Source: an uncultured Desulfobacterium sp.
GTDB taxonomy: Bacteria; Desulfobacterota; DSM-4660; Desulfatiglandales; Desulfatiglandaceae
Direction: 5' to 3'
Length of the DNA: 43,612 bases
Assembly (NCBI GenBank): GCA_900258555.1
Contig: LT984855.1
Coordinates: forward strand, 953,993-997,604
The position numbers and the translations under genes were made by a program. This document shows positions 232-11,154 of the stretch, piece after piece; the first letter of the stretch is position 1, and each line of letters begins with the position of its first letter. The notes below the pieces were generated by a model that was not told the DNA's origin, did not search any database, and saw only the letters and a program-made list of their open reading frames with translations.

Positions 232-1038
232 ATGAAGCTAAGGTCTTTTTTCCGCACACATCCTGTTTTTACCATCGAGGAGTTTACCGGTTTCCTGTCG
301 TCCGATGGAACTTATAACATAAGAACACGGGAATCTCTTCTTGACTACCATGTAAAGGCGGGTAATATTGTGCGCGTACGCCGTGGGCTCTATGCATCTG
401 TGCCCGCCGAGGCCTCACCGGAAAACTTTCCACTAGACCCGTTTCTTCTTGCCGGCAGACTGGCTAAGGACGCTATTCTGGCTTACCACACGGCGCTGGA
501 GGCACATGGCAAGGCATATTCGGTGTACGAACGCTTCACCTATCTTGCCAGCAAACCCATGCGCCTTATAACCTTTAGGTCTCATTTGTTCAAAGGGACA
601 AGATTTCCAAAGGCTCTCGTGCGAAATAATGCGGAATCTTTTGACGTGATGCAAACAGACCGTTCGGGAATGGAAATACGCATAACCGGACTTGAGAGGA
701 CATTAGTAGATGTTCTAAACCGCCCGGACCTGTCGGGCAGTTGGGAAGAAATATGGCGGTCCTTGGAGACCATTGAGTATTTCGATCTCGACAAGGTCAC
801 GCAATACACATTGCTCCTGGAAAATGCCACTACTGCGGCTAAGGTTGGGTTTTTCCTAGATCAGCACAGGGAATCTCTGATGGTAGAAGACACCCATTTG
901 AAGGCTTTCCACGATCTTAGGCCGCGCCGACCACACTACATGGAGCGAAGCCGACGCAAATTCGGTCGCTTAGTCTCTGCTTGGAACCTCGTTGCCCCTG
1001 AAGAAATCCTCTATCGGTCATGGGAGGAATCTCTGTGA
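232..1038 (+). CDS. abiEi: AbiEi-type antitoxin / transcriptional repressor
   Basis: This is the first gene of a type IV toxin-antitoxin pair. AbiEi proteins repress the operon through an N-terminal winged helix and counteract the AbiEii nucleotidyltransferase toxin through the C-terminal domain without a stable complex. The N-terminus (KLRSFFRTHPVFTIEEF, then a helix-turn-helix followed by VRRGLYASVP) is typical of the family, as is the middle segment AKDAILAYHTALEAHG. The frame is open from an ATG at 208, but the ATG at 232 is preferred: it gives the usual MKLRxFFRTHPVF start, has a GGA 8 bases upstream, and lies further from the predicted transcription start. The gene overlaps the toxin gene by 19 bases, so the two are translationally coupled. 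Family assignment is confident. Confidence 0.85.
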   Translation: MKLRSFFRTHPVFTIEEFTGFLSSDGTYNIRTRESLLDYHVKAGNIVRVRRGLYASVPAEASPENFPLDPFLLAGRLAKDAILAYHTALEAHGKAYSVYERFTYLASKPMRLITFRSHLFKGTRFPKALVRNNAESFDVMQTDRSGMEIRITGLERTLVDVLNRPDLSGSWEEIWRSLETIEYFDLDKVTQYTLLLENATTAAKVGFFLDQHRESLMVEDTHLKAFHDLRPRRPHYMERSRRKFGRLVSAWNLVAPEEILYRSWEESL

Positions 1039-7034: not shown

Positions 7035-7123
7035 TGGTGCCTGAGACGGGAATCGAACCCGTACAGAGACTAAGCTCCGAGGGATTTTAAGTCCCTTGCG
7101 TCTACCAGTTCCGCCACCCAGGC
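7035..7123 (-). tRNA. tRNA-Leu (anticodon UAA), CCA encoded
   Basis: The minus strand starts with GCCTGGG and ends with CTCAGGCACCA, forming the acceptor stem with encoded CCA. The T arm GGGTTCGATTCCC, a long class II variable arm and an anticodon stem GGGA/TCCC with loop CTTAAAA (anticodon TAA) are all present. The total length is 89 bases. Its 3' end faces the accessory region at 1-6900, the usual orientation for island integration at a tRNA gene, but no second copy of the 3' end was found in the window. Confidence 0.95.
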
Positions 7124-7152: not shown

Positions 7153-8289
7153 CTAACGATTAGGCAATGAAACCGCTTTATTCCTGATTAAAGGGGCGCC
7201 TTCTGTGGCCCTTTTCGCAGGATCTTCTCCAACGGCCCTGCCAAACACCCCTATCTCGACTGTCGGCTGGACCTTGTCATCTGTGGAAATAATTATCTTT
7301 CCCCTTATATACTCTTTATCAAATTTTTCATTCATTGTCACCTTAACAATATATTCAACTCCCTCTTTTACCGTCACGACCTCGGTCTTGAGATCTGGTG
7401 TTGTTGCGCTTACATTGAGGAGCTTGAATGTTACATCGGATACAGCCCTCAGCCTTACCGATCTTTCATATTTCCCACCTTTTTTGAATACGCCGAATGC
7501 CAGATTATCCGGAAAGACCATAATGTCTCCCATGACCTCTCCATAAATAAAAACAGGCAATTCTTTCATCTTCTCATGGCTGGTCTTGATGTTTATCTGT
7601 TCTCTGAACCTGCCCACATTAATGTCCGGCGAGACCATAACCTTGATCCGTTTTTCCGTCTTATTATCCTTGGGTGGCAAGGTCTCTATCTCAGTAATTA
7701 TATTTTTGTTGTTTGAAGATACAGATAATATTTCTGTCTTGTCTTTGTCATTACCGATCAGTGTTACATATTGCGGAAGGGGTGGGACTCCCCTTTTCAG
7801 TCGCCCGAAGTTGATCCTGTCAGGGGTGGCTGCCAGACTGACCTGAATATCGGCTGTAACCTTCAAGCTGATGGAAGGGTTGTCAGGATCATCACAGTTT
7901 ACTGTGATCGCCTGCGTCTTTTCACCGGACTTCAAGGCCGTCTTGAATGTGATATGGATCTTTCCTTCCCCTCCCGGGGGAATCTCCTTGGCTGATGCCA
8001 AGGCCGCGGTACAGCCTCAGCCGGCCTTTACATCTTTGATGTGGAGATTTGCAGCTCCTATATTTTTAAAGACAAAGGTATGTTCGAGTGTTGTCTGCTG
8101 AGATACCTTTCCAAAATGGTGGGTCATTTCATCGAACTGGATCTTGGGAGCGCCCTGGGGAGCGTTTGGTATCGCACTCGTACCAATATTAGCTGGTTGC
8201 TCGGCGCTGATCACCTCTGAGATGCAAAGACCAATTCCAAGTACAGAAATCAAAAGAAATCTAACGGATAACGACACTAGATGGCTCAT
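7153..8289 (-). CDS. DUF1573 domain protein with in-frame UGA (candidate selenoprotein)
   Basis: Two adjacent minus-strand frames are one gene interrupted by a single in-frame TGA at 8017-8019; read through, it gives 378 residues. Residues 1-28 form a signal peptide. A DUF1573 domain (KIQFDEMTHHFGKVSQQTTLEHTF, FKNIGAANLHIKDVKAG) follows, and the family's conserved Cys-Gly-Cys-Thr reads UGA-Gly-Cys-Thr at 91-94. It continues normally with PPGGEGKIHITFKT and two more immunoglobulin-like domains to residue 378. DUF1573 proteins are probably exported beta-sandwich proteins of unknown role. The UGA replaces exactly the first motif Cys, the frame beyond is intact for 287 codons, and a strong hairpin follows the UGA. 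These points favour selenocysteine, while a recent nonsense mutation remains possible. The ATG has no clear Shine-Dalgarno sequence except GGGGGG 16 bases upstream. Confidence 0.7.
7986..8003 (-). promoter_or_regulatory. Hairpin downstream of the in-frame UGA (bacterial SECIS candidate)
   Basis: In the mRNA the perfect hairpin CCUUGGC-AUCA-GCCAAGG begins 13 bases after the UGA, so its apical loop is about 20 bases away. That is within the range known for bacterial SECIS elements. Against this, the loop AUCA lacks the G commonly found at the first or second loop position. Confidence 0.4.
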
Positions 8290-8328
8290 TAGTCAACAAC
8301 CCCCCTAAGATGCTGTTATAGTTAAAGA

Positions 8329-8357
8329 ACGATAGATTAATACACTTCCTGTGTCAA
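8329..8357 (-). promoter_or_regulatory. sigma70-like promoter of the DUF1573 gene
   Basis: On the minus strand TTGACA (8352-8357) and TATCGT (8329-8334) are 17 bases apart. This places a transcription start about 35 bases upstream of the DUF1573 ATG. It suggests that the gene is transcribed separately from the TPR gene upstream. Confidence 0.5.
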
Positions 8358-8384
8358 GATCAAAGACACCCGGAAATATTGCCA

Positions 8385-9329
8385 TTAAAATCTCAATGTC
8401 AATGCCAGGCCCATTGCATTGCTGCCGGCTACTATCATACCTAGATCAAACCTGTCTCTAAGGCCCTTAATAAAGTCATCACTTACCTTCCTGTTATATT
8501 TATATGCCCCATTTACTGCACTATAGATGTTCCCGGCATACCACCCTACCTCAAAGACCGTGAAGATACTCCCGAGGGCGTAATGGTCTTTATGAAAAGA
8601 TTCAGCCGCCGCCCATATAAAAATACCGTTTAAGACAAACGCCACCGATGCATCACGATAACGTCCAACATATGCATGTCCCATGCCAGGGACGAGACCG
8701 GCAAGGAGCCCGGCATATCGCGGACTTTTTAGGGGAAGCATTTCTCCCTTAAGACACTGCTCTGAAAGGTCTGACGAACTTTCATAAAATGGACTTTCCC
8801 TCTCTACTCGATTAAAGATCGTGGATGCCTCCCGCCATTGTCCTTCTTTCATCTTGGTCCAGGCCAGGCGATAGACTGCATGATTTTTTAAGCCAGCTTG
8901 TTCATCTCTTTCAATAACCTGACCAAAATAGTATTGCGCCTCATCGAAAATCCCTTGCTGATAATAGGATTCCCCGATCAACAACAAGGCTTGACTTGGC
9001 TCTGGTCCTTCAGCATAGGAATTGATAATCTTAAATAAGACATCCCTAGCCTTCTCAAATTGCCTGTCATTAATATAACATACCCCGATAAGCAGCCGGG
9101 CCTTCGGCGTATTCCCATCATTAGGAAAGAAATGGATGAATCTTTCAAATTCCGTCACGGCGCGATTATATTCATTCCTTTCCATCAAGGCACGGGCAAA
9201 ATCAAACTGGCTTACACTGTCAATGACTATCTGTTCTGAAAAGGCATGGGAGACTATTGTAAGCAGAAAAACTAGACCAAAAATAGAGAGTGATAAGATC
9301 CTATTTATCAACGGCCTTACCTCGGTCAT
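8385..9329 (-). CDS. TPR-repeat protein with signal sequence and membrane segments
   Basis: From the chosen ATG (MTEVRPLINRILSLS) the protein has 314 residues. It has an N-terminal hydrophobic signal, tetratricopeptide repeats at about 35-170 (FDFARALMERNEYNRAVTEF, ARLLIGVCYINDRQFEKA, ALLLIGESYYQQGIFDEA) and a C-terminal part with hydrophobic segments (AGLLAGLVPGMGHAYVGRY, ASVAFVLNGIFIWAAAES). The pattern PGxGHxYxGRYxDA recalls small membrane proteins of the YidD/TM2 neighbourhood. The frame is open further upstream to 9413, but this start follows the signal peptide and overlaps the YidD-type gene by 29 bases, indicating coupling. The function is unknown; a role at the envelope is likely. Confidence 0.7.
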   Translation of the reverse strand: MTEVRPLINRILSLSIFGLVFLLTIVSHAFSEQIVIDSVSQFDFARALMERNEYNRAVTEFERFIHFFPNDGNTPKARLLIGVCYINDRQFEKARDVLFKIINSYAEGPEPSQALLLIGESYYQQGIFDEAQYYFGQVIERDEQAGLKNHAVYRLAWTKMKEGQWREASTIFNRVERESPFYESSSDLSEQCLKGEMLPLKSPRYAGLLAGLVPGMGHAYVGRYRDASVAFVLNGIFIWAAAESFHKDHYALGSIFTVFEVGWYAGNIYSAVNGAYKYNRKVSDDFIKGLRDRFDLGMIVAGSNAMGLALTLRF

Positions 9330-9726
9330 ACCACCAGAAATCGTTGTTTTCAACCGGATCGAGGACAAGAAACCTTCCGCCATAATATACGCTGGGGGAG
9401 ACAGAGGCCTCATCAGCCTCGTGAATCAGGCGATCAGCTGTCATCAGCCATCCCACCAAAAGGCCATGTTCCTTAAAGGCTGAAATACTGTAGGAAGAAC
9501 AAGACGGAAGGCTTGGGCACCTGTCACTGTCTACTGAAGAAATGTATTTTTGAAAGGCCGACACCACCCACACGCCTATATTGTAATCCTCCTCTTTCTG
9601 TTCTGCTTTCTGTCGTACCCCGCGATCAAATCCCGGACTGCCCGGATACCTCCAATGGCTTTGTGCGCAACCGGAACATATGAAAAACAAAGTAAGAATA
9701 AAAACAGGGCATTTGACAATATTCAT
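9301..9726 (-). CDS. YidD-domain lipoprotein
   Basis: The 141-residue product starts with a lipoprotein signal (MNIVKCPVFILTLFFICSGC, lipobox ending in Cys). A YidD (DUF37, membrane protein insertion efficiency factor) domain follows at about 50-105: VSAFQKYISSVDSDRCPSLP and SCSSYSISAFKEHGLL. It keeps the conserved Cys residues and the C-P-S-x-x-x-C-S-x-Y pattern. Ordinary YidD is a small cytoplasmic-side protein encoded near yidC and rnpA, so a lipoprotein form paired with a TPR gene is unusual. The frame extends nine codons upstream to 9753, but the inner ATG gives the better signal peptide. Confidence 0.7.
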   Translation of the reverse strand: MNIVKCPVFILTLFFICSGCAQSHWRYPGSPGFDRGVRQKAEQKEEDYNIGVWVVSAFQKYISSVDSDRCPSLPSCSSYSISAFKEHGLLVGWLMTADRLIHEADEASVSPSVYYGGRFLVLDPVENNDFWWYDRGKAVDK

Positions 9727-9771
9727 ACGTACCAGCTGGGATAAATTTGTCATTGTCGGTCATTGCGTAAG

Positions 9772-9800
9772 TTGACACCGCCCGTTCATGCTGTTAACAT
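9772..9800 (+). promoter_or_regulatory. sigma70 promoter of the type II secretion operon
   Basis: TTGACA and TAACAT with a 17-base spacer lie in the 198-bp gap between the divergent yidD-like gene and gspF. The predicted 5' leader is about 115 bases long. Confidence 0.55.
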
Positions 9801-9924
9801 TGAACCTTAAGCTGAATAGCTTTTTGCTGAAAAGAAGTGTATGCCTTTTACCATATTACTACAAAGAATGCTATCAATAATCGCTGGTAGTTTACAAGGT
9901 TTCTAAGAGCTTCTTTATCGCGCT

Positions 9925-11154
9925 ATGCCCGTATTCGAATACAAAGCCCTGGACAAGTCAGGCAAGACCACTAACGGTATTGTTGATGCCGACAGCGCCG
10001 TTGGGGCAAGGCAAAAACTGAGAGGAACCGGCCTCTTTCCGGTCGAGGTAAGGGTAACCGCCTCCAAGACCAAGGAACAGGAAGGCCCTGCCCAGACATC
10101 TCTCTCCACACTCTTTCAAAGGATCAAACCGGCTGAACTCTCTGTTATGACACGTCAATTGTCCATTCTTCTGGGTGCCGGGGTAACCCTTGTCGCTTCA
10201 CTTGACACCTTGATTTTACAGATTACAAACCCGCTGTTTAAAAAAATATTGGCCCAGGTCAAGGAATCGGTCAATGAAGGAAACAGCCTGGCATTCACCC
10301 TTTCAAAACACCCAAAGATATTTTCCCAGATATATGTCAATATGGTGAGGGCCGGTGAGGCGTCCGGTTCTCTTGACCTGGTCTTGGAGCGTCTGGCCGA
10401 GTTCGGTGAACGTCAAGAGATCATAAGGGGCCGCTTTAAGGCGGCCATGGCCTATCCGACCGTAATGCTTTTTATAGGAACCGCCATCCTCTTCTTCCTG
10501 GTCACGTTTATTGTTCCTCAAATCGCTGGTATTTTCAAAGACTTAAAACAAACCCTACCAGTTCCTACCCTTATACTTATAGCAATAAGCGGTTTTTTGA
10601 AATCCTTTTGGTGGCTGATCCTGATGTTGATTGCCGGAATCATAGTGTTGCTGCGGCAATTGGTAAAGACCCCTAAGGGCAGATACGTATGGGATAAGAT
10701 CATACTGACCACTCCGATGTTCGGTGACATTAACGTCAAGATGGCTATGGCGCGGTTCGGCAGAACACTTGGCAGCCTGGTCCAAAACGGCGTCCCCCTG
10801 TTGTCCGCCCTTGAGATCGTCCGAAATATTGTCAATAATACACTTATCGCCAAAGATATTGATGAGGCTATGGAAAAGATAGGAGAGGGAAAAAGTCTGG
10901 CTGCGCCCCTTTCCCAAAGCCGTTGGTTTCCGCCGATAGCCATTCAGATGATAGCCGTTGGAGAGCAGAGCGGGGAACTGGAAAGGTTGCTCAACAAGAT
11001 TGCAGATATCTATGAGGGAGAGACAGAATCCAAGGTCATGGCGTTGACCGCAATGCTTGAACCCCTAATGATCCTTTTTATGGCTATCAGCGTGGCATTC
11101 ATCGTCTTTTCCATACTGCTGCCCATATTCGAGATAAACCAGATGGTCCATTAA
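9925..11154 (+). CDS. gspF: Type II secretion inner-membrane platform protein GspF
   Basis: The 409-residue protein begins MPVFEYKALDKSGK, the usual GspF start. It has the two T2SSF domains (about 70-195 and 270-395), each ending in membrane segments: AAMAYPTVMLFIGTAILFFL, the block at about 215-245, and MILFMAISVAFIVFSILLPIF at the C-terminus. Conserved motifs include QLSILLGAGVTL, MVRAGEASGSLD and IAVGEQSGELERLL. GspF forms the inner-membrane platform with GspC, L and M and is thought to couple the GspE ATPase to pseudopilus growth. It opens the cluster behind a sigma70 promoter, and its length is normal. Confidence 0.96.
   Translation: MPVFEYKALDKSGKTTNGIVDADSAVGARQKLRGTGLFPVEVRVTASKTKEQEGPAQTSLSTLFQRIKPAELSVMTRQLSILLGAGVTLVASLDTLILQITNPLFKKILAQVKESVNEGNSLAFTLSKHPKIFSQIYVNMVRAGEASGSLDLVLERLAEFGERQEIIRGRFKAAMAYPTVMLFIGTAILFFLVTFIVPQIAGIFKDLKQTLPVPTLILIAISGFLKSFWWLILMLIAGIIVLLRQLVKTPKGRYVWDKIILTTPMFGDINVKMAMARFGRTLGSLVQNGVPLLSALEIVRNIVNNTLIAKDIDEAMEKIGEGKSLAAPLSQSRWFPPIAIQMIAVGEQSGELERLLNKIADIYEGETESKVMALTAMLEPLMILFMAISVAFIVFSILLPIFEINQMVH

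Follow-up and report, generated by a model that had tools for sequence, protein, structure and literature searches.

The minus-strand gene at 7153–8289 of the window (the whole stretch of DNA analyzed, 43,612 nucleotides) very probably encodes an exported DUF1573 selenoprotein of the OS_HP2 type, with three Ig-like domains and the UGA at codon 91 read as selenocysteine (Sec). At the sequence level, this reading is supported by a UGA that lies in frame and is conserved at one exact position, by a coding pattern that is maintained before and after it, and by the full Sec machinery of the genome.

Two minus-strand open reading frames, 8017–8289 (90 amino acids) and 7153–8001, lie in the same phase, and the TGA at 8019–8017 is their sole separator. 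The downstream frame was counted from its first TTG but is open from 8016. After the TGA, 287 family-like codons follow with no other in-frame stop before the gene end, and the read-through product has 378 residues. Its DUF1573 domain (PF07610, residues 50–147) scored 92 bits, compared to the Pfam gathering cut-off of 26.1. The UGA corresponds to residue 91, the first Cys of the DUF1573 Cys-Gly-Cys-Thr motif, which would thus read Sec-Gly-Cys-Thr. The gene therefore shows the UGC arrangement: a UGA within the reading frame takes the place of the first Cys of the CGC motif and is followed by family sequence. An earlier note, made from the window's letters alone, had described the single TGA between the two frames, its place in the motif, and the 287 open codons with normal family sequence; all three were confirmed.

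The gene was compared with that of UBA5623 (DIKH01000199.1, Desulfobacteraceae bacterium), the sole other sampled genome of the genus. The two DNAs share 72% identity, and the UBA5623 DUF1573 gene carries TGA at the identical codon. Across the 250 codons that follow the TGA, the differences numbered 38 at first, 30 at second, and 102 at third positions, a distribution that argues for a translated reading frame under purifying selection. Conservation of the coding type was observed on both sides of the TGA. The gene order PilC-YidD-TPR-DUF1573 is common to both genomes. In the window, the gene for a TPR/YbgF-like envelope protein (8385–9413) lies upstream on the same strand, followed by that for YidD, a membrane protein insertion efficiency factor (9301–9753, minus strand), and both are conserved in the genus. 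A tRNA-Leu(TAA) gene (7035–7123, minus strand) is located directly downstream and has no part in recoding.

The view that the TGA is a sequencing error or arose recently by nonsense mutation, so that the gene is broken or split, has nothing in its favor beyond the TGA itself and is extremely unlikely. The earlier note had kept this alternative in view, to be recognized by TGT or TGC in a close relative or by missing selB and selC. UBA5623 has TGA at this codon, with purifying selection after it, and both selB and tRNA-Sec are present in the genome of the window. Dozens of genomes also carry TGA at this site, and this independent occurrence refuted the alternative.

The wider sample comprised 99 genomes, the window's own and relatives from its order and phylum. 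DUF1573 genes with an in-frame TGA were found in 69 of the 99, and four held only TGA-free copies. As the earlier note had proposed, homologues were aligned at the site. The TGA fell exactly at the aligned Cys position in 57 loci examined, and TGC or TGT stood there in three others. The Gly-Cys after the TGA belonged to the search pattern and is thus not independent, whereas the surrounding family sequence lay outside the pattern. Cys-containing homologues aligned at the UGA were those of loci L032, L033, and L096 and the L018 paralogue from the window's own genome; the TGC/TGT homologues are continuous genes. Since the same TGA occupies one site in dozens of genomes, chance or decay is no explanation. 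Position-specific conservation across relatives is, on these alignments, strong evidence for recoding, and the hairpin of the window gene alone is weak evidence.

Several genomes (G004, G036, G008, G020, G022, and others) carry two to four UGA-DUF1573 copies. In locus L050, a thioredoxin/DsbA-like frame (282–719, minus strand) lies beside the UGA-DUF1573 gene and starts with Pro-Tyr-Cys right after a stop codon; it is possibly another candidate Sec protein, of the UxxC type.

We searched the genome of the window (5.4 Mb, 28 contigs, 98.9% complete) for the Sec genes, as the earlier note had advised, and all were found. They were selA (627 bits), a canonical selB (382 bits), selD carrying its own TGA, and selC, a tRNA-Sec that scored 72 bits and has G73 as its discriminator. 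TGA was also present in several FlpD genes. The earlier objection that no Sec machinery lies in the window therefore falls away, as selA, selB, selD, and tRNA-Sec lie elsewhere in the genome. Among the 69 genomes with UGA-DUF1573, 63 gave a selA match above the cut-off. The six without a full-score selA are drafts of 63–92% completeness, and two of them hold selA fragments. G004 (92% complete) has four UGA-DUF1573 copies and no selA match. G088 (91% complete) has neither selA nor a strong selB match, and its DUF1573 is in the Cys form.

In the proposed mechanism, SelD would make selenophosphate and SelA would turn Ser-tRNA-Sec into Sec-tRNA-Sec, which SelB would bring to the UGA, aided by the hairpin that lies some 20 nt further on. 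In the protein, Sec-Gly-Cys would stand where Cys homologues have Cys-Gly-Cys. For the window gene, both the Sec insertion at UGA 91 and the use of the hairpin by SelB are steps that we infer.

The SECIS-like hairpin (7986–8003, minus strand) starts 13 nt downstream of the TGA, in agreement with the earlier note. It consists of a 7-bp stem (CCTTGGC at 8003–7997, GCCAAGG at 7992–7986) and a 4-nt loop (ATCA, 7996–7993) that starts 20 nt after the UGA. These values fall within the published constraints on bacterial SECIS elements, namely a stem of 4–16 bp, a loop of 3–9 nt, and a spacing of 16–37 nt (PMC13188914). The 40-nt stretch alone folds moderately better than its shuffles (z = -1.8). The bSECIS rule expects a G within the first two loop positions, and some bacterial elements fail the bSECIS consensus (PMC13188914). 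This consensus G is absent from both the window loop and the same-genus loop (CTCT). In the three nearest relatives, the stems have 6–7 bp, the loops are CTCT, TTCG, and TCATTT, and the loop starts 16–20 nt after the UGA.

Only 15 of the 58 best hairpins of the DUF1573 family have the loop G, compared to all eight SelD and FlpD sites of the window's genome, whose GG-loop hairpins are unlike those of DUF1573. Thus, the earlier observation that the usual G is missing holds for the window but loses its force as an objection, since most hairpins of the family lack it. Among 41 main-type relatives, a 7-pair stem at columns 13–19/29–35 had 86% of its cells paired, compared to at most 50% when the stem was slid. 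Covariation in these relatives was modest: 1 of 500 shuffles was as high on percent paired, and 13 to 35 of 500 were as high on the other four measures. RNAalifold retained only three pairs of the family hairpin. Given this modest covariation and the three retained pairs, we describe the hairpin only as SECIS-like. The rarity of the loop G suggests that the DUF1573 family may have a distinct class of SECIS-like element.

An AlphaFold2 model of the read-through product (mean pLDDT 86.8) showed a helix at the N-terminus, followed by three beta domains of the Ig-like type. The hydrophobic N-terminal helix is predicted to be an export signal or anchor. Residues 90–93 (Gly-Sec-Gly-Cys) form a turn between strands 82–89 and 94–98 of the first Ig-like domain. 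The matches from a fold search were of the generic Ig-like kind only, and their TM-scores were low. In a sequence search of solved structures, only 2qsv, an uncharacterized Porphyromonas gingivalis protein, was clear (E = 3.9e-6), and this sequence relative aligned over just one Ig-like domain. Because one Cys of a Cys pair is replaced, the Sec-Gly-Cys pair probably acts in the cell envelope as a selenylsulfide/thiol redox site. Near the gene in some main-type relatives, a Rex-like regulator or flavin reductase-like gene was named by eye from its sequence.

The position of the UGA within this fold also bears on whether it is a true stop, with a short product of 90 residues made alongside a long one that is re-initiated or rarely read through. 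A TTG is present after the UGA. In addition, a portion of truncated product is to be expected, as Sec insertion does not usually go to completion. However, the UGA interrupts the first Ig-like domain between strands 82–89 and 94–98, which would leave neither half with an intact fold, and the TGC/TGT homologues are continuous. Such a two-product gene is hardly credible.

A second tRNA with a TCA anticodon was found in the window's genome. It has discriminator U73 and a mismatched T stem, and it adjoins a second selB (303 bits). The selC* opal tRNA-Cys-like gene, followed by the divergent selB*, occupies 7912–10011 of locus L018 (minus strand), at about 1451911–1454010 of contig C1 (1.452–1.454 Mb). 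The pair fits the selC* tRNA-Cys/selB* pair of Mukai et al. 2017, as reviewed in PMC7609411, which assigns to such tRNAs a Cys-type identity and a SelB* of their own. Most of the other selB*-bearing genomes have a tRNA of this type beside that gene. SelB* and SelB share 59 of the first 100 alignment columns but only 13–15 columns per block in the C-terminal part, which would bind a hairpin. A Cys-form (TGC) DUF1573 paralogue is located just upstream of the selC*/selB* region (L018 11115–11852, minus strand), and a sigma-54-type regulator gene, named by eye, lies between them. In relatives, a recurring neighborhood of selB* comprises genes for 2-hydroxyglutaryl-CoA dehydratase of the D type, a BadF-type activase, and SelD-like and TusA/DsrE-type (YedF-like) proteins (L153 862–4166, minus; L156 5710–8826, plus; L147 3673–4974, minus; L148 4003–6093, plus). 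No clear UGA target was found among the genes around selB* in relatives, which were only machinery or metabolism, e.g., SelD, YedF/TusA-like, and HGD-D with its activase.

Given this pair, one alternative is that selC* (U73) and SelB* insert cysteine at the UGA, either constantly or when selenium runs short. In support are the adjoining selC* and second selB in the window's genome, the Cys-type character and dedicated SelB* given for such tRNAs in PMC7609411, the contrast between the DUF1573 hairpin and the GG-loop hairpins at the SelD and FlpD sites, and the nearby Cys-form DUF1573 gene. Against it, selB* was found in only about 12 of the 99 genomes (the window's and about 11 relatives). UGA-DUF1573 showed no association with selB*, occurring in 9 of the 12 genomes with selB* and 60 of the 87 without it (Fisher p = 1.0). 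In 18 genomes of at least 95% completeness, UGA-DUF1573 occurs without selB*, and the window-type relatives G085 and G046 gave no selB* match. Cysteine decoding is therefore unlikely, and dependence on selC*/selB* as the main explanation was rejected by co-occurrence across the 99 genomes. It is equally doubtful that, in genomes with both systems, the UGA is ambiguous, giving Sec through SelB when selenium is available and, under scarcity, Cys through selC*/SelB*, in which case SelB* would be the factor that recognizes the unusual hairpin. Since selB* is not associated with the gene across relatives, the best reading for the window gene is that the ordinary Sec system suffices. The selC*/selB* pair could also act on the window UGA in this genome.

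The earlier note had called the gene a candidate new selenoprotein, without counting DUF1573 among the established selenoprotein families. The machinery and the conserved site uphold the selenoprotein, but the family is already known, and the window gene is a new, somewhat unusual member of it. A 'DUF1573 domain-containing protein, motif UGC' is among the listed prokaryotic selenoproteins (PMC9312934; PMC13188914), and the entry in PMC9312934 credits it to a 2007 study of Olavius algarvensis symbionts. In addition, NCBIfam NF041425 is named 'OS_HP2 family (seleno)protein'. The window protein matches 96 of its 98 model positions (E = 5.2e-27), and its 94.1 bits lie just below the curated cut-off of 100, compared to 123.7 for the Cys paralogue of the same genome. 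The window protein is therefore classed as a DUF1573 selenoprotein that lies near NF041425 without strictly belonging to it.

As far as the tools show, what is new within this analysis is the high frequency of the Sec form in the order, the atypical family hairpin, and the selB* association test. The Sec form is the usual DUF1573 form in this order, often with several copies per genome. DUF1573 hairpins mostly break the SECIS-finder rule, so these genes are easily annotated as two fragments. Furthermore, the co-resident selC*/selB* makes the question of what this pair decodes directly testable.

The selC*/selB* system is present in the window's genome as a separate UGA-reading pair and is without association with UGA-DUF1573. 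Compared to the reviewed DUF1573 UGC selenoproteins, the window protein has the identical domain, Sec-Gly-Cys motif, and site. It differs in its three Ig-like domains and in the distance from the motif to the Pro-Pro-Gly-Gly segment, which is one residue longer than in most relatives.
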